Shown: positions 5,066 to 27,850, counted from the first letter of the stretch. The stretch: DNA of 64,000 nucleotides from Candidatus Methylomirabilis lanthanidiphila (GCA_902196205.1 CABIKM010000006.1:1-64000); one strand, 5' to 3'. Notes: generated from the letters alone by a model not told the origin. Made by a program: numbers and translations.

Positions 5066-6664
5066 ATGATTTCAGTGAGCGGTGTGTGCATGAGGTTCGG
5101 CTCGAAAATCCTGTTCGAAGACGTCACGACGACGTTTTCAGCGGGACGGCGTTACGGCCTGACGGGCCCCAACGGCGCCGGCAAGTCGACGTTCATGAAG
5201 CTGCTCACCGGCGAAATCGATCCGCAGGTGGGCACGGTGGCCAAGCCGCGCAAGCTCGGCGTCCTCAGCCAGGATCAATACGCCTTTGATCGGTTCCGCG
5301 TGATCGACACCGTCATCATGGGCAACAGACGCCTGTGGGCGGCCCTTCAGGAACGCGATGAGATCTACGCACAACCGGAGATGACCCACGACGCCGGCAT
5401 GCGCCTCGGCGAGCTGGAGGGCATTGTCGGCGACGAAGACGGCTACTCGGCAGAGAACGACGCGGCCCTGCTGCTGCAGGGGCTCGATATTCCCGACAAC
5501 ATCCACGACTGGAAGATGTCGGAATTACAGGGCGGGCAGAAGGTGCGCGTGCTGTTGGCACAGGCCCTGTTCGGCCATCCGGAGGCGCTGCTGCTTGACG
5601 AGCCGACGAACCACCTGGACCTGGATTCGATTCACTGGCTGGAGGAACTCCTGGGCCGATACGACGGCACGCTCATCGTCATCTCGCACGACCGCCATTT
5701 CCTAAACAACGTCTGCACGCATATCGCCGACATCGACTATCAGACGATCATTACCTACACCGGCGGCTACGACGACATGGTGGTCGCTAAGACGCAGATT
5801 CGGTCAAAGATCGAGTCTGAGAACGCGCAACGGGGGAAGAAGATCGCGCAGTTGCGGGACTTCATCCAGCGTTTCGGGGCGGGCACGCGCGCGAGCCAGG
5901 CCACATCGCGTCGCAAGGAAGTCGAACGGCTGCAGACAAGCGATCTGGCCCGCTCGAACATTCAGCGTCCGTACATCAAATTCTCAATGAAGCGGCCGTC
6001 CGGAAAAGTTGCGCTGGAGTTCGAGAACCTATCGAAGGGCTTCACGAACAATCCTGTTATTTCCGGCTTCAGCGCCATCGTCAATCGGGGTGAGAAGATC
6101 GTGCTCGTCGGCCGCAACGGGGCAGGAAAAACTACCCTGCTGAAGGCACTGCTGGCCGATGCGCCAGATTTGCCGGCCTCCCCTGCCGATGTGGACTGCG
6201 GCAAGACAACGTGGGGGTACGGGGTGTCGATCGGCTACTTTCCACAGGACCACACCGGAGAGATCGAGAAGGGGCTTACGGCGGCGGACTGGCTGCATCG
6301 CTTCGATCCGGATGCGTCACGGCAGGACATTCACGGACTGTTGGGACAAATGCTGTTCAGTGGCGAAGAAGGCCACAAGCCGACCGACGCACTTTCCGGC
6401 GGCGAGACCGCCAGACTGCTGTTCTGCCGCATCATGCTGCTGAAACCGAACGTACTCGTCCTGGACGAGCCCACCAACCATCTCGATCTGGAATCCATCA
6501 ACGCGCTGAATGTGGCGCTTCAGAAGTTCGAGGGCACCGTGCTGCTGGTCACGCACGACCAGGACCTGCTCGAAGAGGTGGGCACGCGGATATGGTGCTT
6601 CGAGCACGGCAAGATTGTGGATTTCAAAGGGAGCTACGAGGAATACGCTGCGTCGCTGGTCTGA
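5066..6664 (+). CDS. ybiT: ABC-F family ATPase, YbiT-like
   Basis: 532 residues, the length of E. coli YbiT, whose N-terminus it resembles (MRFGSKILFED, then RYGLTGPNGAGKSTFMKLL). Domain 1 carries GPNGAGKST, a signature that reads LQGGQKVRVLLAQAL (Q replaces S) and ALLLDEPTNHLD. Domain 2 has GRNGAGKTT, LSGGETARLLFCRI and VLVLDEPTNHLD. The linker contains the basic QATSRRKEVERL segment. A cytoplasmic ribosome-associated ATPase is expected; the exact step in translation is not established for YbiT. No Shine-Dalgarno precedes ATG 5066 (see the -10 box at 5052). Confidence 0.9.
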   Translation: MISVSGVCMRFGSKILFEDVTTTFSAGRRYGLTGPNGAGKSTFMKLLTGEIDPQVGTVAKPRKLGVLSQDQYAFDRFRVIDTVIMGNRRLWAALQERDEIYAQPEMTHDAGMRLGELEGIVGDEDGYSAENDAALLLQGLDIPDNIHDWKMSELQGGQKVRVLLAQALFGHPEALLLDEPTNHLDLDSIHWLEELLGRYDGTLIVISHDRHFLNNVCTHIADIDYQTIITYTGGYDDMVVAKTQIRSKIESENAQRGKKIAQLRDFIQRFGAGTRASQATSRRKEVERLQTSDLARSNIQRPYIKFSMKRPSGKVALEFENLSKGFTNNPVISGFSAIVNRGEKIVLVGRNGAGKTTLLKALLADAPDLPASPADVDCGKTTWGYGVSIGYFPQDHTGEIEKGLTAADWLHRFDPDASRQDIHGLLGQMLFSGEEGHKPTDALSGGETARLLFCRIMLLKPNVLVLDEPTNHLDLESINALNVALQKFEGTVLLVTHDQDLLEEVGTRIWCFEHGKIVDFKGSYEEYAASLV

Positions 6665-7734: not shown

Positions 7735-7886
7735 CGCCTGTTCCTCCACGCGGCATTTCTAACCATGATTTCGCCCATCGCGACCAAATAGGACCGGATC
7801 GTTTGCGTGCAGCGTAGCTTGCCATGCGCTCGCCAAGATGTCAAACATTTTTCGGGCCTTTCCGAGAGCCCACAGCCGTTCCTGAC

Positions 7887-8549
7887 TTAGACCGGCCAGG
7901 ACTCCCGGCGATAGCCCATCTCCCAGAACATCCACTCGTACCGACTGGTCACAATAAAGCGCCGGCGCATGGCGTCGAGTTCGGCAGATGTAAGCTGGGC
8001 AGCCGTCGCATCCGTGATATCGAGGACGCCGCGAACGAGGCTGCCGAACTCGGCGGAGGCGTAGGTATTGATCCAGCGAGCATAGAGCGAGTCAGGCGAG
8101 CCGGCCCGTTCCAGCTCCTTGCCCACCTCCCAGTAGATCCAGTAGCAGGGCAGTAATCCCGCAATCGCCTCATGGAAAGGGGCCGCGTAGGCAAGCGCCA
8201 GGAGATAACTGGTGTAGGCGAGGTTTGTCGGGGCGAGGGGCGTCGTGGCGACAACTTGCGGGGTGAGACCGAATTCGCGGAAGAAGCTCTCGTGAAGCTG
8301 GCGCTCGACCTTCAGCGCGCCGGCCGCGTGCTCGTTGAACATGATGATCCACTCATCCCGAGGCGCCCGCGCCGCAGCCAACGACAGCGCTCTGGCAAAT
8401 TCGCGCAGGTACAGCGCGTCTTGAACCGCGTAGAACTGAAACCGCTCGCGGGACAGAGAGCCATTGGTAAGTTCGCGAAGGAAGGGGTGACGCAGGATCG
8501 CGGCATAGATGGTCTCAATCGATTTCCACAGCTCTGCCGTATACCCCAT
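7887..8549 (-). CDS. tenA: TenA-family thiaminase II
   Basis: 220 residues from ATG 8549 (AAGGGA just upstream). All-helical haem-oxygenase-like fold. It has the TenA active-site Cys in LLPCYWIYWEVG and the C-terminal Glu in MFWEMGYRRESW, plus the QDALYLREFARAL and NEHAAGAL helices. TenA hydrolyses aminopyrimidine breakdown products of thiamine for salvage into thiamine diphosphate. No other thi genes and no TPP riboswitch are seen nearby. A perfect inverted repeat lies 19 bp upstream (8568-8586). Confidence 0.9.
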   Translation of the reverse strand: MGYTAELWKSIETIYAAILRHPFLRELTNGSLSRERFQFYAVQDALYLREFARALSLAAARAPRDEWIIMFNEHAAGALKVERQLHESFFREFGLTPQVVATTPLAPTNLAYTSYLLALAYAAPFHEAIAGLLPCYWIYWEVGKELERAGSPDSLYARWINTYASAEFGSLVRGVLDITDATAAQLTSAELDAMRRRFIVTSRYEWMFWEMGYRRESWPV

Positions 8550-8567
8550 GGCCGATCCCTTCAACGC

Positions 8568-8586
8568 CTCTCATATGGTATGAGAG
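8568..8586 (-). promoter_or_regulatory. Perfect inverted repeat upstream of tenA
   Basis: CTCTCATA and TATGAGAG form 8-bp arms around a 3-base centre, 19 bp before the tenA start and overlapping the place where a promoter or leader would be. It is an operator or small hairpin; the cognate regulator is not visible. Confidence 0.45.
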
Positions 8587-8626
8587 TGTGCGTATTCAGA
8601 AGGCAATGCGCTTTAATGCGACGGTT

Positions 8627-8848
8627 TTACTCTTGTGCCACCGAAAGGCTAGTGATCGGCAGCGACTCCGCCTCCAGACGCGATAGATCGACGATCTGGC
8701 TGGCATGGTCGATGTCGATGCCGACTAAATGCCCTTCCGCATCAAAGTCCAAAACGACCCCAGGGGCGGCTTCTCTGGAGTCCGTACTCGCCTTTTCCGA
8801 AAGGTCGATATAGAGCGAGTCGGTCTCCGGGTAATAATGGAACTTCAT
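8627..8848 (-). CDS. DUF2283 family protein
   Basis: 73 residues. The opening FHYYPETDSLYIDLSE, then GVVLDFDAEGHLVGIDIDHAS, is the DUF2283 pattern, a small beta-rich domain. Its ATG overlaps the stop of the upstream gene (ATGA-type junction), so the two are co-translated. Such DUF2283 genes are often found beside DUF4258-like genes; an antitoxin or modulatory role is inference only. Confidence 0.75.
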   Translation of the reverse strand: MKFHYYPETDSLYIDLSEKASTDSREAAPGVVLDFDAEGHLVGIDIDHASQIVDLSRLEAESLPITSLSVAQE

Positions 8849-9084
8849 TGTTTCACCCCCTTGAATTCGCGATCTGGAAACGCATTGTGGACTGTTTCAC
8901 CATCTTCGAGTGTGACCACTCGCAAGTATTTTCCAAGCTCCGGAACAAAAACCCAGTAACGGACGCGCCCACCAGTCTGGACCTCACGATACTCGAATTG
9001 GAGCAGAGCCCCCTCGCACCACTCGCGCCGGATGTACGGCCGCTTACGCAACACCTGCTGCTCAAAATAGCGCGTCGTTCTCAT
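8845..9084 (-). CDS. DUF4258-like small protein (possible toxin partner of DUF2283)
   Basis: 79 residues, basic N-terminus (TTRYFEQQVLRKRPYIRREW), then a beta-rich half ending YLRVVTLEDGETVHNAFPDR. This RelE/BrnT-like mixed pattern resembles DUF4258 proteins. It overlaps the DUF2283 gene by 4 bp. A toxin-antitoxin arrangement is plausible but untested; it could equally be a two-component housekeeping pair. Confidence 0.6.
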   Translation of the reverse strand: MRTTRYFEQQVLRKRPYIRREWCEGALLQFEYREVQTGGRVRYWVFVPELGKYLRVVTLEDGETVHNAFPDREFKGVKQ

Positions 9085-9159
9085 CTCGCATGCTGCCTAG
9101 CCCACAATCACTGCTGATGGCACAACTGAATAACCTTTATCATAACAGAGGTCCCTCAC

Positions 9160-9245
9160 TTAAATGTTGGTGGGGACCGATTCGCCAGCGGCGCCGATCA
9201 GCGTCTTCTCGGCGACCTGGCTGAGAGCCTTGATATGTCGCCGCC
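9160..9245 (-). pseudogene. Orphan copy of the 3' end of the HD-hydrolase gene
   Basis: Read on the minus strand it gives HIKALSQVAEKTLIGAAGES, then VPTNI and a stop (TAA at 9160-9162). The intact HD gene at 13662 ends RIKALSEASEKALTGAAGES, then VPTNI and a stop. The ~28 codons are clearly homologous but diverged (about three quarters identical), and similarity ends abruptly upstream near 9245. It lies immediately beyond the 3' end of the large NTPase gene, so that gene is bracketed by two HD-gene termini. Confidence 0.8.
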
Positions 9246-9293
9246 AGCGTTGGGTTAATTCCAGTGAGATTATCATTTTTCAGACAACCTCGC

Positions 9294-12200
9294 TCATGCT
9301 TCCAGGCTAGCCTCACGAAGTCTATCGCGTAGATCTTGAGCCAAGCGAACTCCCGTACTGTTCGCTGCATCAAGCAGAAGCCCTGCAACTTGAGAATATG
9401 TAGGCACTAGAATCGCTTTGAGTTTTCTCCTAAATGCTTGAGGATTGCGAATTGCAAACGCTTGCGACCTTGCAATCTGCACCCAATATTCGAGGACAAA
9501 GACAGCGATGTCCTCCGTCATGAGTTCGCTTGCCGGTTTGCAATAAAGCAGATAGTCAAAGGCAACAGCTTGTGCACCACAACACTCTGGAAGGGTAGCA
9601 TTTGGCGCACAAGAAAGGGCTAGATAAAGTAAAGGGGAGAGATACGCCAGACCCTCTGGCAGGGTACGAATCTGCCCATAGATTGTCTCACGGGTAGCGA
9701 GTGAGCTAAATGCAATGCGGAGCTCGCGGAGCATATTCAGCCAATGCTGAGAATCGACGAGATGCTGTTCGAACTGGCGAAAAACGGTTTCGAGTTCCGA
9801 AATCACGGCGGCGTAGGTGTCAGCGTGATTGCCCTTTGCGAGAGTCCGAGCTATGGCAGGCCCGACGGTCATCCAGTAGAGGCCGCGCTCGAAGTCGCGG
9901 CGCTGCTCTATCGGGAGGTCGCCCCACCTGTCAACGAGTGAGGTCAGAGCAGTCAGTGGATCAACTCTCAGTTCCTTTACCTTGCTAATGGCTGGAAAGA
10001 TTCGAATTCCAGACATGCCGAGTGCCAAAGCTTGTGAATAGTCCTCTCTTCGTGCGGCAAGTTGCGCGAGTTCCAAGTCAGTCCAGTGTCGGAGAGCAGT
10101 TAAGCCTTCGGATTCAGCAAGCCGCTTAGCCTCGTCGAGTTTGCGCCCGGCGAGTTCATAGAGCCGGCACCCAGCGGCGAAGGTGCCCAATTGACTAAAG
10201 AGTAGCGAGAAAAAGGGAGGCAAGGGTATGTCGGCCATCTTCGGTCGTGACCTTGAGAAAAACCCGGGAAACGGCTCAGTGTAAGGTTGCCCATCCGACG
10301 TGTGAACGGGAGGGGCACCGGTGCTCGATAGCGATGCCATCCAGCCAAGCACATGCCCCGCCTTCCGAAATACCTCACGGAAGCGCGCATTCTCGAAATC
10401 CGAACTTTGATACAATCCACGCACTAGGCCAGACATCGCTCCCCAGGCTCTTCGGCGGTTACGTAGTGACCAGTATGCCCAGGCGAGTTCCCCAATCATC
10501 TCGAGCCGTTCGAAGACCTGATCGTCCTTTGCTGGCAGTTTTAGCGATCTGATGCTGAGGTCTTGGACGAGTTGCCAATCGCCAACCCTGCCCGCCGCTT
10601 CCGCTCCGCGTCGTAAGGCATCAAGCCGCAGGAATGAATAGGCGGTAGGGGATTCGGCAAGCGCCATCTGATAACGACGAAGAGCAGCCTCGGGCGTGCT
10701 GCGATCTAATAGGATACACGCCGCGGTGTAATTGAGCAGAAACCGCGCGTTATTGTCGGGAGCCGAAAGAGCTCCTTCAAGCACGTCCAGGCCATCCTGA
10801 GGTCGATCCATGTAGTCAGCGAAGACGATGGCTTTAGCGCGTGCAACGGGTGCCTGGAGAGGCTCCCCCCCGGGAAGCTCGGCTATTCCGAGAATTTCGT
10901 CCAAGAGCGAAATCACCCCGTCCCAGTCCTGCTCTTCCTCTGGCTTCCTCAGCTCGACGATCCAGGAGCGATCAACGAAGAGCTCTGGGGCATCGCGTAG
11001 CATGTCGTACGCGAAAGCAGCCCTCCGCTCCACTTCGGTCATGTCGGCAAGTACACCTAAGACACTTCTGATAGCCTCCTGGCTCTGAATGCGTGTTACA
11101 CCACCCCATACGAGGGACTCGAGAGGGACTTCAAGCGGGATCCCCTGGAACTCGGTAGGAAGATGGGGATAGATCCGAGAGGCTTGCAAAGTTTTTCGGG
11201 CGGCTGTCCCAGGGGGAGCATGTGGGTTCAGCGGCCCTATGAGCATATACGCAAGGAATGCCATGGGAAGGCCGCCTGCACCCGCCTCTTGGATCATTGT
11301 GTCAAGCTCAGCAATGAAGCTTTCGGTTTCTCTGTCGAGTTGTGTCAGTATCCGAACTTGAATTGCACGAAAGGTGATGCGTAGAGGGAGAGGGAAATTG
11401 TCGGGCCATTGGCCCTGCGTGAAGAGGAGAGTCAAAAACTCAAAGGCCTCGGCGCGGGACCTATCAACAATCTCGAGAGTTATTCGAAGGAGAAAATCTA
11501 TCAACGCAGTCCAGTTGGCAGCGGCCAGAAGATGGAGGACAATTTGGAATGCCCGCTCTAGGTCAATGGTGCCGCTCCTGAGATGGTGGAAAGCAATTTT
11601 ATTATGAATGCTGCGCCGCAATTGGTCTGTGAGCGTGATTTGTCCAGCATCGCTCAGCAGAGGCGACACTTCGAAACGGTTAGCAGCGATTTGGTGAATC
11701 CAGGGTCCAATGAGTTCTGGAAGAAGTTCTTGAGGACGAGGAACCGCTGGTTGTACTTCAGAAACGGCACTCACAAGGGCTTTATCGAATCCAACACCTA
11801 TCAGGGACAGGCGGTAGAGTAGTTCGCGGAGGCGGTCATCCGGAAGAAGCTGGAGAAGCTTACGGCGAGCTTCGGCCCTGACCTCTCCAGTGGCGTCGCC
11901 CGTGAGAATCTGGCCAAGCTGGTCTTGATCAACATACCATGCACTGCGTCTAAGGAAGAGGATTGCGGCTAATATCAGGGATGGGTGGCCACGTGTTGCA
12001 ATATGAATCAGATTCAGGGACCCCGGTTGATGGAGAGCTGGGGGGGCCGCCACATTAGTAAGTATCTCATCAATATCCTGTGGAGTCATCGGAGGAACTT
12101 GAACTTCGGCGACTACTACATCAAGTTGTTCTTTGATGGACTGCGGTAGGGTCCACTGTGCAGTGGTCACAAGCCTTGCTCCTACCTGCTGTAACGCCTT

Positions 12201-13601
12201 AGTCAATTTTACCAACCTATCACCGAGCAGCGGAACTCTGGACAGATCAGGAACTTCATCCAGCACAAGTAGGCCCGTCGCACCAAGACGGCGGGCCGCA
12301 TGTCCTGCTAGTTCAGAAAAGGTCAGCGCGCCGACACAGTAAGCGGTCACCAGTTCAGAATAGTCTTGGATGCTCGTGAGGCGCAGCAATTGAAAGTCGA
12401 GGTGTTGTTGAAGAATTCGCTCACAGGTTTGTTTTCCACGAAAAGAAATCCAGGCTGTCCTAGTGAGCCCATGTTCTTCAGCAAGAAGGCTTGCTACGTA
12501 TGTCTTTCCCATGCCGGTCGCGCCCGTAATGCCCAGCCAGGTAGGATCCCGCAGTCTTCCGAGTAACCCGCGTACGAGCCCTGTTCGCCGAGAAGCACCA
12601 GGATGCATAACCGGCGTTTCGTCTGGCGGCGGCACCTGTGCAGGAAGAAGGTGGGCTTGGATGCCTGAGACCTGTTGAATCAGTTGGGCTAACCCCTCGG
12701 GAACCGGCTGAAGGGCAGCGATTCCCTGAGATATGGACTCCGCTTGAGAGGTGAGGCGGTGGTAGTAGGCTTCAGCCTGTTCGGCAAGGGCTACGAGGCG
12801 GGTTAGTATTCTACGATCAAGCTCTGTAATTGACCTCTCAAGGAGAAGCTGTTCAAGTCCTTCAACTGTAAGTTGTTTCTCCCCACTTTGTGTCAGCAAG
12901 TGAAATACGTGCACTATGAGAACGTCTGCGAGGCATCGCGCCTCCTCGTGATCATGAGCCCGTGACTGGTTGAGCAGGAGAGATTGAATCTCAGTGCGGA
13001 GTTGTGGAGGGTCAGGAAGTCCTATTGCCCACTCAAATCGCGATATGAACTCATCGATGAGAGTGTGAATTCCAGCAGAACCGATGAACGCCTGTAGTCC
13101 GGCAAATACTGGCCCAGGGAGATCTTGGGGACACCGAGAACCTTTGACAAGCTTCTTAAAAATAACGATGAATTTCTCAGCCTCACTCTGAGTGAGAGCA
13201 CCCTCTTTTATGCGGTTCCAGATTTCAATGCCGGTGAGGCCGTGCGGAAAGTGCGTTCGCTGCTCTCTGCCAGGATGAGCAGTGGTTGAGAATCGATAAA
13301 GGATACGCAGAGAAGGGTTATTGCGGACTGCTTCGTAAAATCTCGCGAGAGCGGTGAGGGCTTCGGGGCTCCTGAGGGTAATCCTGTTTCTGGCCTTGAC
13401 TTGTTCGAGGATGCGCGGTTGTGCAGCATCGTCAGCATCGAGAAGTCGCTTGACATGGTCAATGTCTTCTCCGCACTCGCAATATAGAACAACATCTGGT
13501 TGAAGCTGAAGCCACCTGACGACTGTGAGTTCTACCTGGTAGTAGAAGCCCTTAATAGCGTTGGAGGCATCGCGTTGAGGATTGTAAACAAAGGTAGTCA
13601 T
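9294..13601 (-). CDS. Avs-like STAND NTPase with N-terminal Cap4-type nuclease domain
   Basis: 1435 residues. (1) The N-terminal ~200 residues fit the DUF4297/Cap4 dsDNA nuclease: NAIKGFYYQVEL (14-25), CECGEDID (41-48) and EQVKAR (66-71), i.e. the E-D-(Q)xK core of a PD-(D/E)XK nuclease. (2) A P-loop NTPase follows: Walker A GITGATGMGKT (~355-365), Walker B GLLVLDEVPD (~443-452) and a later RGHPSLILAAILFL helix, typical of STAND ATPases. (3) The remaining ~800 residues are helical repeats of TPR character. Nuclease-STAND-sensor order is that of antiviral Avs proteins, which bind phage proteins and then degrade DNA. The defence role is inferred from architecture. The gene is monocistronic and lies between an intact HD-gene 3' end and a diverged remnant of it. 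Confidence 0.8.
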   Translation of the reverse strand: MTTFVYNPQRDASNAIKGFYYQVELTVVRWLQLQPDVVLYCECGEDIDHVKRLLDADDAAQPRILEQVKARNRITLRSPEALTALARFYEAVRNNPSLRILYRFSTTAHPGREQRTHFPHGLTGIEIWNRIKEGALTQSEAEKFIVIFKKLVKGSRCPQDLPGPVFAGLQAFIGSAGIHTLIDEFISRFEWAIGLPDPPQLRTEIQSLLLNQSRAHDHEEARCLADVLIVHVFHLLTQSGEKQLTVEGLEQLLLERSITELDRRILTRLVALAEQAEAYYHRLTSQAESISQGIAALQPVPEGLAQLIQQVSGIQAHLLPAQVPPPDETPVMHPGASRRTGLVRGLLGRLRDPTWLGITGATGMGKTYVASLLAEEHGLTRTAWISFRGKQTCERILQQHLDFQLLRLTSIQDYSELVTAYCVGALTFSELAGHAARRLGATGLLVLDEVPDLSRVPLLGDRLVKLTKALQQVGARLVTTAQWTLPQSIKEQLDVVVAEVQVPPMTPQDIDEILTNVAAPPALHQPGSLNLIHIATRGHPSLILAAILFLRRSAWYVDQDQLGQILTGDATGEVRAEARRKLLQLLPDDRLRELLYRLSLIGVGFDKALVSAVSEVQPAVPRPQELLPELIGPWIHQIAANRFEVSPLLSDAGQITLTDQLRRSIHNKIAFHHLRSGTIDLERAFQIVLHLLAAANWTALIDFLLRITLEIVDRSRAEAFEFLTLLFTQGQWPDNFPLPLRITFRAIQVRILTQLDRETESFIAELDTMIQEAGAGGLPMAFLAYMLIGPLNPHAPPGTAARKTLQASRIYPHLPTEFQGIPLEVPLESLVWGGVTRIQSQEAIRSVLGVLADMTEVERRAAFAYDMLRDAPELFVDRSWIVELRKPEEEQDWDGVISLLDEILGIAELPGGEPLQAPVARAKAIVFADYMDRPQDGLDVLEGALSAPDNNARFLLNYTAACILLDRSTPEAALRRYQMALAESPTAYSFLRLDALRRGAEAAGRVGDWQLVQDLSIRSLKLPAKDDQVFERLEMIGELAWAYWSLRNRRRAWGAMSGLVRGLYQSSDFENARFREVFRKAGHVLGWMASLSSTGAPPVHTSDGQPYTEPFPGFFSRSRPKMADIPLPPFFSLLFSQLGTFAAGCRLYELAGRKLDEAKRLAESEGLTALRHWTDLELAQLAARREDYSQALALGMSGIRIFPAISKVKELRVDPLTALTSLVDRWGDLPIEQRRDFERGLYWMTVGPAIARTLAKGNHADTYAAVISELETVFRQFEQHLVDSQHWLNMLRELRIAFSSLATRETIYGQIRTLPEGLAYLSPLLYLALSCAPNATLPECCGAQAVAFDYLLYCKPASELMTEDIAVFVLEYWVQIARSQAFAIRNPQAFRRKLKAILVPTYSQVAGLLLDAANSTGVRLAQDLRDRLREASLEA

Positions 13602-13661: not shown

Positions 13662-15074
13662 TCAGATGTTGGTCGGGACCGACTCGCCGGCGGCGCCGGT
13701 CAGCGCCTTTTCTGAAGCCTCACTGAGGGCCTTGATGCGACGGCGGTCGGTAGTAAAGACTCGGTAGCGAGCCACCTTGGGGGGAATATCGCGGAAGAGG
13801 TCCATGAGCGGCTTGGGCGACACATCGCCCGTAGCCGGATTGTACATAAAGATCTGCTTGCTCCCTTCAGCCAGCGGGTTGATGGGACGGGGATCGAGCG
13901 CCGCCATGTCCACCTTGAATTCGATCCCATGCAGGCGCTTGGGCAGGCAGCGGCGGATCGTCTCCTCGAGATGTTCGGCTGTCTGAAACCGAACCATCCG
14001 TTGGGACTCCTCGATGGTGGAGACAAAGTCATAGGCCATCTTCCACTTGACATTCCGCCCTAAGATCTTTCCCCATTCCGCGCCCAGCGCCCGCTCATGC
14101 GGGTCGCTCGAGGTCGCCCACTGGCCGACCCGCTCAAACAGGGACCAGTCAGTCAGTCCCAGGTACCGATCCAGCGCTTTGTACGGATTATACGGGGCGA
14201 TCCGCTCCATCGTCTCCTTGAAGATCCCCTGAACATGCAGGTCGATGGCCCTGGTCGTCCGGTGATGGTAGACGTGCAGGTAGAGGGCGAACTTCGCGTT
14301 CAGGAACCGCATCAGGGCCGACTCTCCGGCCTTGTGCAGGGTGAGTCCTTTCGGCGTAAAAAAGGTGTACAGCAGCAGCCGCTCGATATCCACCATATCC
14401 AGCGAAAAGCCGGTCATATACGCGTCTCGCTGGACGTAATCAAGGTTATCCACGGTATAGATTCCGGAGAAGAGCGGGCGGAGCGCCTGCAGCCAGTCCG
14501 GGACGCCGGCCACAGGGCCGATCCTGAGCTGGGTCGAAGGACCCGTTTCCGGCTTCTTGATCAGGAACGCGATCTGTCCGGGGTCGAGCCGCTCGCGCGG
14601 CTGAAACGGCCCGCTCGGGCTGCGGCGGATCGCTGTGATCATCCCTCCCAACTTCTTTGTGATGATGGCCGTTCCCAGAATCTCGTGGTTCAGCCGCTCG
14701 CCACGAACACCAAACTGCTTCAGAAAGTGGTCATCAAAGAAATGTCCGAAGGGGCCGTGCCCGACGTCGTGAAGCAACCCGGCAAGCCTCAGCAGCTCTT
14801 CGATAAACGGCAGCGACGGCAGGGCCTCTCCGAATGTCTCCTTCAGGCTGGGATACAGGTGTCTCGCGAACTCGCCAGCCATGTGCATCGTCCCAAGGAC
14901 ATGCTGAAACCGACTGTGTTCGCCGGAGGGGTAGACCCACCAGGTGCTCTGCAGTTGGTGAATACGGCGCAACCGTTGGACCCACGGGCTGTCAATGATC
15001 TCCTTCTCAGTCCGTTCCGATCGATCACCCTTTGGGACGGTGAAGAGGATATAACGATGGATCGGGTCGGCCAT
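13662..15074 (-). CDS. HD-domain phosphohydrolase (COG1078, dGTPase-like)
   Basis: 470 residues from ATG 15074 (AAGGGG 8 bp upstream); a longer frame to 15158 lacks such a site. The metal-binding residues of HD hydrolases are present: the first His in SRFQHVLGTMHMA, the HD pair in GLLHDVGHGPFGH, and a later Asp in YTVDNLDYVQRDAYMTGF. COG1078 members resemble dNTP triphosphohydrolases; the true substrate is unknown. It lies 11 bp downstream of the Ski2-like helicase gene, probably as one operon. Its last ~28 codons are duplicated in diverged form at 9160, beyond the Avs-like gene. Confidence 0.88.
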   Translation of the reverse strand: MADPIHRYILFTVPKGDRSERTEKEIIDSPWVQRLRRIHQLQSTWWVYPSGEHSRFQHVLGTMHMAGEFARHLYPSLKETFGEALPSLPFIEELLRLAGLLHDVGHGPFGHFFDDHFLKQFGVRGERLNHEILGTAIITKKLGGMITAIRRSPSGPFQPRERLDPGQIAFLIKKPETGPSTQLRIGPVAGVPDWLQALRPLFSGIYTVDNLDYVQRDAYMTGFSLDMVDIERLLLYTFFTPKGLTLHKAGESALMRFLNAKFALYLHVYHHRTTRAIDLHVQGIFKETMERIAPYNPYKALDRYLGLTDWSLFERVGQWATSSDPHERALGAEWGKILGRNVKWKMAYDFVSTIEESQRMVRFQTAEHLEETIRRCLPKRLHGIEFKVDMAALDPRPINPLAEGSKQIFMYNPATGDVSPKPLMDLFRDIPPKVARYRVFTTDRRRIKALSEASEKALTGAAGESVPTNI

Positions 15075-27755: not shown

Positions 27756-27850
27756 TGGCGGAGGCGTGTGAGGGTCGAACTCACCAACCCGGTATTAGCG
27801 GGTACGCTGGTTTTGAAGACCAGGAGGGCCACCGGGCCCATTCCGCCTCC
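27756..27850 (-). tRNA. selC: tRNA-Sec (UCA anticodon)
   Basis: The reverse complement is a 95-nt tRNA: acceptor GGAGGCG/CGCCTCC with G discriminator and encoded CCA, long D-stem GGGCC/GGCCC, anticodon loop CTTCAAA (anticodon TCA, reading UGA), a long variable arm (CGTACCCGCTAATACCGGGT) and GGTGAGTTCGACCCTCACAC as the T-arm. The size and long D and variable arms are those of selenocysteine tRNA. It implies a Sec decoding system (selA, selB, selD) elsewhere in the genome. Confidence 0.93.

Follow-up and report, generated by a model that had tools for sequence, protein, structure and literature searches.

Is the long gene at positions 9294–13601 of a contig from Candidatus Methylomirabilis lanthanidiphila an antiviral immune receptor, and if so, to which of the known kinds does it belong? 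The gene lies in the first 64,000 nucleotides of the contig (CABIKM010000006.1), and this whole stretch of DNA is referred to here as the window. Our analysis suggests, with a probability of about 0.76, that it encodes an Avs-like defence protein, a bacterial NLR acting as a one-gene system, a reading which draws on sequence comparison and on analogy with characterized systems. The gene, from an unnamed sequence family, is a good candidate for a role in defence, and its general mechanism would not be that of a new kind of system. The open reading frame consists of 1435 codons, begins with ATG and exactly occupies positions 9294–13601 of the minus strand; many stop codons are present on the plus strand across the same positions. 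In 500 order-1 Markov sequences of 30 kb each, matched in dinucleotide make-up, the longest stop-free run had a mean length of 266 and a maximum of 431 codons versus the 1435 observed. The original prediction, which had been made from the sequence alone, gave the correct length and coordinates and left out the strand. As predicted from the sequence, the single chain joins an effector, a STAND-like NTPase and a repeat sensor in the arrangement of the antiviral STAND architecture.

9294..13601, minus strand: whole gene, predicted 1435-aa Cap4/DUF4297 nuclease, STAND NTPase and tetratricopeptide repeat (TPR)-like sensor (reading frame and translation; 12-member alignment)

The N-terminal part of the protein was searched with profiles, and the match to Cap4/DUF4297, on which the original prediction had staked its reading, was found. 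The elements of this region are as follows.

12822..13601, minus strand: predicted Cap4/DUF4297/LmuA-type PD-(D/E)XK nuclease domain, residues 1–260 (PADLOC LmuA, DUF4297 and PDB profile matches)
13458..13478, minus strand: putative acidic active-site part E42-C-G-E45-D46-I-D48 (conserved; aligns to E..ED.D of solved DUF4297)
13395..13403, minus strand: putative QxK active-site part Q67-V-K69 (conserved; aligns to Q.K of solved DUF4297)
12600..12821, minus strand: linker, residues 261–334, with its first part predicted helical (helix 261–297 in a low-confidence model; variable among relatives)

Residues 10–260 matched the PADLOC models of LmuA (E 1.9e-9) and DUF4297 (E 3.6e-5), and in the family-wide scan the corresponding values were 2.8e-10 and 2.9e-6, with LmuA recovered in 14 and DUF4297 in 12 of the 16 family nuclease domains. 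When the family profile was compared with the PDB, it matched the DUF4297 chains 8xav, 8ziq and 9c1m (E 4.6e-8, 1.7e-6 and 1.4e-4, respectively), and the alignment to these solved antiphage nucleases spanned the GYxYQ, E..ED and QxK motifs. E42 and D46 are invariant in the 16 domains, E45 and Q67 are kept in at least 90% of them, Q22 is invariant or nearly so, and position 69 is lysine or arginine, so that the catalytic residues are retained despite a family identity of only about 20–30%. The metal-site motif is Q67-x-K69. Of the two catalytic residues proposed in the original prediction, K69 agrees with this pattern, while E66 is not conserved, many relatives having V, T, A, R or G at this position. 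The translation contains the GEDID (44–48) and EQVK (66–69) motifs, the Walker A block GATGMGKT (360–367) and the Walker B sequence LLVLDE. AlphaFold models of the nuclease and of the remaining chain were built from 4 and 2 sequences, with a mean predicted local distance difference test (pLDDT) score of 47 and 45. In the former, residues 19–104 form a helix-strand-helix-strand-helix-strand succession (low confidence), which fits a PD-(D/E)XK core as far as such a model can be read. At the level of sequence profiles, the assignment of the N-terminus to the Cap4/DUF4297/LmuA PD-(D/E)XK nuclease superfamily is confirmed.

The central part of the chain contains the following features.

12042..12599, minus strand: predicted P-loop NTPase core, residues 335–520 (sub-threshold AAA_22/AAA_16 hits; nSTAND3 in 8 of 15 members; alignment)
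12501..12524, minus strand: Walker A GATGMGKT, residues 360–367 (G365 and K366 invariant)
12255..12272, minus strand: Walker B LLVLDE, residues 444–449, DD in most relatives (D448/D449 column nearly invariant)
12156..12176, minus strand: sensor-1-like RLVTTAQ, residues 476–482 (T480 invariant in the 12-member alignment)
11982..11990, minus strand: GHP, residues 538–540 (in the same alignment G538 is invariant and H539 almost so)
11556..12041, minus strand: helical, possibly winged-helix-like region, residues 521–682, RELLYRLSL...GPWI...SPLL (block conserved in 15 relatives)

Residues G363, G365, K366 and D448 are conserved among the homologues, and the GHP sequence is placed where, we presume, the GxP motif of NB-ARC/STAND proteins sits. 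The sequence features confirm a predicted P-loop NTPase with STAND-like character, and residues 521–682, which lie between the NTPase and the sensor, may be winged-helix-like. When the model of residues 330–1435 was compared with the PDB, the top match was PH0952 (6mfv), a STAND protein with TPRs (E 3.1e-6, probability 1.00), which provides the match to a STAND protein that the original prediction had called for, although from a low-confidence model. The overall similarity was weak (template modelling scores 0.17/0.27, with the query model at a mean pLDDT of 45). The same structure was also recovered by the sequence profile.

The remaining part of the protein, about 750 residues, is conserved to the C-terminus across phyla and would serve as the sensor.

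9297..11555, minus strand: putative TPR-like helical sensor, residues 683–1435 (profile, Pfam, model, held-out relatives)
10422..10967, minus strand: best-predicted part of the sensor, residues 879–1060, paired TPR-like helices (pLDDT mostly 60–86)

The sensor profile matched consensus TPR structures, the relatives gave weak TPR Pfam hits, and the region is almost wholly helical in the predicted model. The original prediction had called the C-terminal sensor unlike any that could be named; the sensor is recognizably TPR-like. By analogy with related receptors, the sensor may bind a phage protein.

The distribution of the family was analyzed next to these domain assignments. The relatives are few, belong to several phyla and are mostly plasmid-borne: tblastn found them on 16 plasmid records from Deinococcus, Aulosira, Priestia, Sphingopyxis, Paraburkholderia, Agrobacterium, Rhizobium, Caulobacter and other hosts, and none in 50,697 phage records. 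The nearest annotated relative, WP_152872661.1 from a Deinococcus sp. NW-56 plasmid, is annotated as a hypothetical protein; it has 29% identity over residues 6–773, can be aligned end to end (L002), and has a genomic setting different from that in the window. Single-protein peptide-pattern searches of the genome contigs and viral contigs found nothing, because family members at about 20–30% identity are too distant for such patterns, and the whole-family alignment contained no conserved stretch usable as one. Two genomes (G154 and G168) whose matches span the P-loop region only were rejected as carrying family members. A full-length relative is also present on a 99-kb IMG/VR contig (L021, 4932–9374), where it is followed by a possible restriction-endonuclease-like gene (9711–10544); given the putative viral origin of the contig, a virus may carry this copy as a weapon against its rivals.

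The comparison of domains showed that the parts of the protein occur in other combinations. The Aulosira (L004) and Priestia (L005) relatives, which had been held out of the sensor profile, were matched by it at E 3e-50 and 2e-28; they share the NTPase and the sensor and lack the Cap4 domain. Conversely, proteins from Myxococcaceae (L016) and Burkholderiaceae (L012 and L017) have the Cap4 domain without the sensor of the window protein, and the common ground of the last two with the family is the nuclease domain only. These two groups indicate that the modules have been exchanged. Module exchange is usual among STAND immune receptors. The Myxococcaceae gene (8533–12375) joins this Cap4 nuclease with a P-loop NTPase and repeats that differ from those of the window protein, which makes it another unannotated Avs-like architecture. 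Complete Gabija systems stand beside two distant relatives: the Agrobacterium gene (L008) lies directly upstream of GajA–GajB on the same strand (1011 and 817 bits), and in Caulobacter (L009) GajA and GajB (891 and 698 bits) are found within about 3 kb. Other relatives are located near transposases, integrases, and TIR, HEPN and toxin–antitoxin genes, as annotated.

The gene itself is found only in its source genome (G000) and is absent from 98 relatives and from 14 other species of the genus, with no further full-length match among 388 genomes. Its GC content at third codon positions (GC3) is 0.522, versus 0.67–0.79 in the neighbouring genes. It lies 60 nt behind a gene for an HD-domain protein on the same strand, so co-transcription with this gene is likely. 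The HD-domain gene and a Ski2-like helicase gene, located upstream, are adjacent in 14 of 15 genus genomes (source included) and 78–92% conserved in 13 of the 14 others. A single defence operon of the HD, helicase and nuclease–STAND genes was rejected, because the pair is present in those 13 genomes and the nuclease–STAND gene only here. In at least seven genus genomes the site is empty, the equivalent of window positions ~7853–7905 coming almost directly after the HD stop codon. The gene is bracketed by the end of the HD gene and a partial copy of it.

13666..13745, minus strand: 3′-terminal part of the intact HD-domain gene, on the upstream side of the nuclease–STAND gene
9164..9243, minus strand: 80-nt partial copy of this 3′ end, downstream of the nuclease–STAND gene (79% identity; nhmmer E 1.4e-18)

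The site behind the HD gene is a variable insertion site, and the nuclease–STAND gene is shown, as judged from these genome comparisons, to have been acquired horizontally. In another genome of the comparison (G007, L046) three copies of the HD 3′ end (5423–5530, 6466–6570 and 7893–7943) have small genes between them, the modules being a nucleotidyltransferase and DUF2283; partial HD-end copies separating gene modules suggest repeated insertion at the 3′ end of the HD gene. In three genus members (G002, G003 and G009) the HD gene is followed immediately, at the same variable site, by a transposase-like gene of the IS200/REP type (Y1); these genes are at L044 451–1125, L045 794–1486 and L049 7639–8262. 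In the window, a DUF2283 protein is preceded by a small overlapping reading frame (8627–8848 and 8845–9084, minus strand). This segment, 8627–9084, is possibly a toxin–antitoxin-like pair, and similar pairs are present in G007 (L046) and, broken by Ns, in G003 (L044). Elsewhere in the window a tRNA-Sec gene with the anticodon TCA was predicted (27756–27850, minus strand), hence the organism may use selenocysteine, and a peak of AT skew at 52–54 kb was assigned to an ordinary membrane glycosyltransferase-like gene.

Taken together, the Avs-like defence reading follows from the homology of the nuclease to the solved defensive DUF4297 with conserved catalytic residues, from 6mfv as top structural match combined with the TPR sensor, from the Gabija genes beside two relatives and the swapping of effectors, and from the sporadic distribution, atypical GC3 and absence from the conserved genus site. 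By analogy with Avs3 and DUF4297–HerA, the protein would act through an oligomerization-activated nuclease and abortive infection. At rest, the STAND NTPase would keep the Cap4-type nuclease domains apart, until the C-terminal sensor binds a protein of a phage or another mobile element that enters the cell. The NTP-bound STAND domains would then oligomerize and unite the nucleases as active dimers, which would cut double-stranded DNA non-specifically and halt the infected cell. DUF4297 needs both its PD-(D/E)xK residues and dimerization (PMC11291478). Several observations weigh against this explanation. Of the STAND families in Pfam, nSTAND3 (found in 8 of the 15 members), NACHT, nSTAND5 and NB-ARC gave weak matches below cut-offs and are outscored on the NTPase by generic AAA models. 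Both structure models are of low confidence, and the nuclease model alone had no match in the PDB, a result that was not used. Finally, among the scanned neighbouring genes, which included those for the HD-domain protein, the Ski2-like helicase, ABC-F-like ATPases and Mla proteins, no defence gene was recognized.

The same machine could have another target, with the sensor detecting products of plasmids or other mobile elements, or a disturbance of DNA repair, in a competition between mobile elements. The plasmid records with relatives, against none from phages, and the full-length copy on the IMG/VR contig are in line with this explanation, but it is unlikely, as the Gabija neighbours of the relatives point to phage defence, the copy in the window belongs to a chromosome, or at any rate to a contig of 94 kb that also carries core genes, and all kinds of defence genes travel on plasmids. 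Additionally, the plasmids were searched by tblastn, while chromosomes outside the 388 genomes were covered by no equally sensitive search. That the gene was acquired and is functionally silent is hardly probable, because the 4.3-kb frame is wholly open with every motif intact and co-transcription with the HD gene is likely, even though the codon composition is unusual, and the promoter-like sites did not exceed chance (three seen, 2.0 expected), with none just upstream of the start.

Two further explanations concern the mechanism. An ATP-driven enzyme resembling restriction systems, which would act on foreign DNA itself in the manner of McrBC or DUF4297–HerA, with the helical part as a scaffold, is very unlikely. 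The nuclease of the window protein is of the DUF4297–HerA family, where an ATPase brings the nuclease together and switches it on (PMC11291478), and the NTPase scores against general AAA models, but some 750 residues of TPR-like protein-binding repeats are better suited to sensing a protein than to DNA translocation, and no DNA-recognition domain was found in the protein. We give similarly little credence to a STAND regulator of signalling or transcription like MalT/PH0952, whose nuclease fold would do no more than bind DNA. PH0952 is the nearest solved structure of the NTPase–sensor part, and it is to our knowledge not a defence protein, but the preservation of the catalytic residues in so divergent a family, the lack of any helix-turn-helix output domain found in the protein and the swapping of effectors among relatives argue against a regulator.

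If the protein is an Avs-like defence receptor, its NTPase–sensor part, which is found in Deinococcota, Cyanobacteriota, Bacillota and Pseudomonadota, could tentatively represent an unnamed clade of bacterial NLRs with exchangeable effectors, which senses some conserved protein of phages or mobile elements that is not among the known triggers of Avs, although this is rather doubtful. If true, the NLR-like immune receptors of bacteria would gain a further clade, widespread but unannotated, and since each Avs sensor reads a conserved phage protein, a new sensor clade would open the way to one more hallmark target.

A tripartite layout is described for STAND immune receptors (PMC12931631), and the window protein has the order of effector, STAND and repeat sensor in common with Avs2, Avs4 and Avs5. 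Avs1–4 nucleases recognize phage proteins and then cut phage and host DNA, and Avs5 has a Sir2 NADase as its effector in place of a nuclease (PMC12931631). The NCBIfam models NF041813 (Avs2), NF041815 (Avs4) and NF041814 (Avs5) did not match at the locus at E≤1, and no Avs family was listed in the NCBIfam scan of the protein and 12 relatives. The antiviral Avs-like NTPase of the original prediction is retained as an architecture, and the protein is not a member of these three families in NCBI's definition. No Avs match was given by the PADLOC and NCBIfam scans, in whose libraries the presence of Avs1 and Avs3 models was not separately confirmed. The nuclease domains of DUF4297–HerA and of Lamassu LmuA are homologous to that of the window protein, but they are separate proteins partnered by HerA or LmuB, whereas here the nuclease is fused to the STAND and TPR parts; neither LmuB nor a HerA ATPase was found among the scanned neighbouring genes. 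The SAVED domain and CD-NTase that accompany Cap4 in CBASS had no match in the protein or the scanned neighbours. PH0952, the top structural match, is a STAND protein with a TPR sensor, but is shorter and lacks the Cap4 nuclease. A literature search, which did not reach subscription papers, found no paper on the combination of DUF4297, STAND and TPR. In architecture the protein agrees with Avs3 (AVAST type 3), whose Cap4 nuclease, STAND and TPR-like sensor come in the same order and whose nuclease belongs to the same superfamily. The DUF4297 dimer, in turn, resembles the Cap4 dimer of Avs3 (PMC11291478, PMC12198126).

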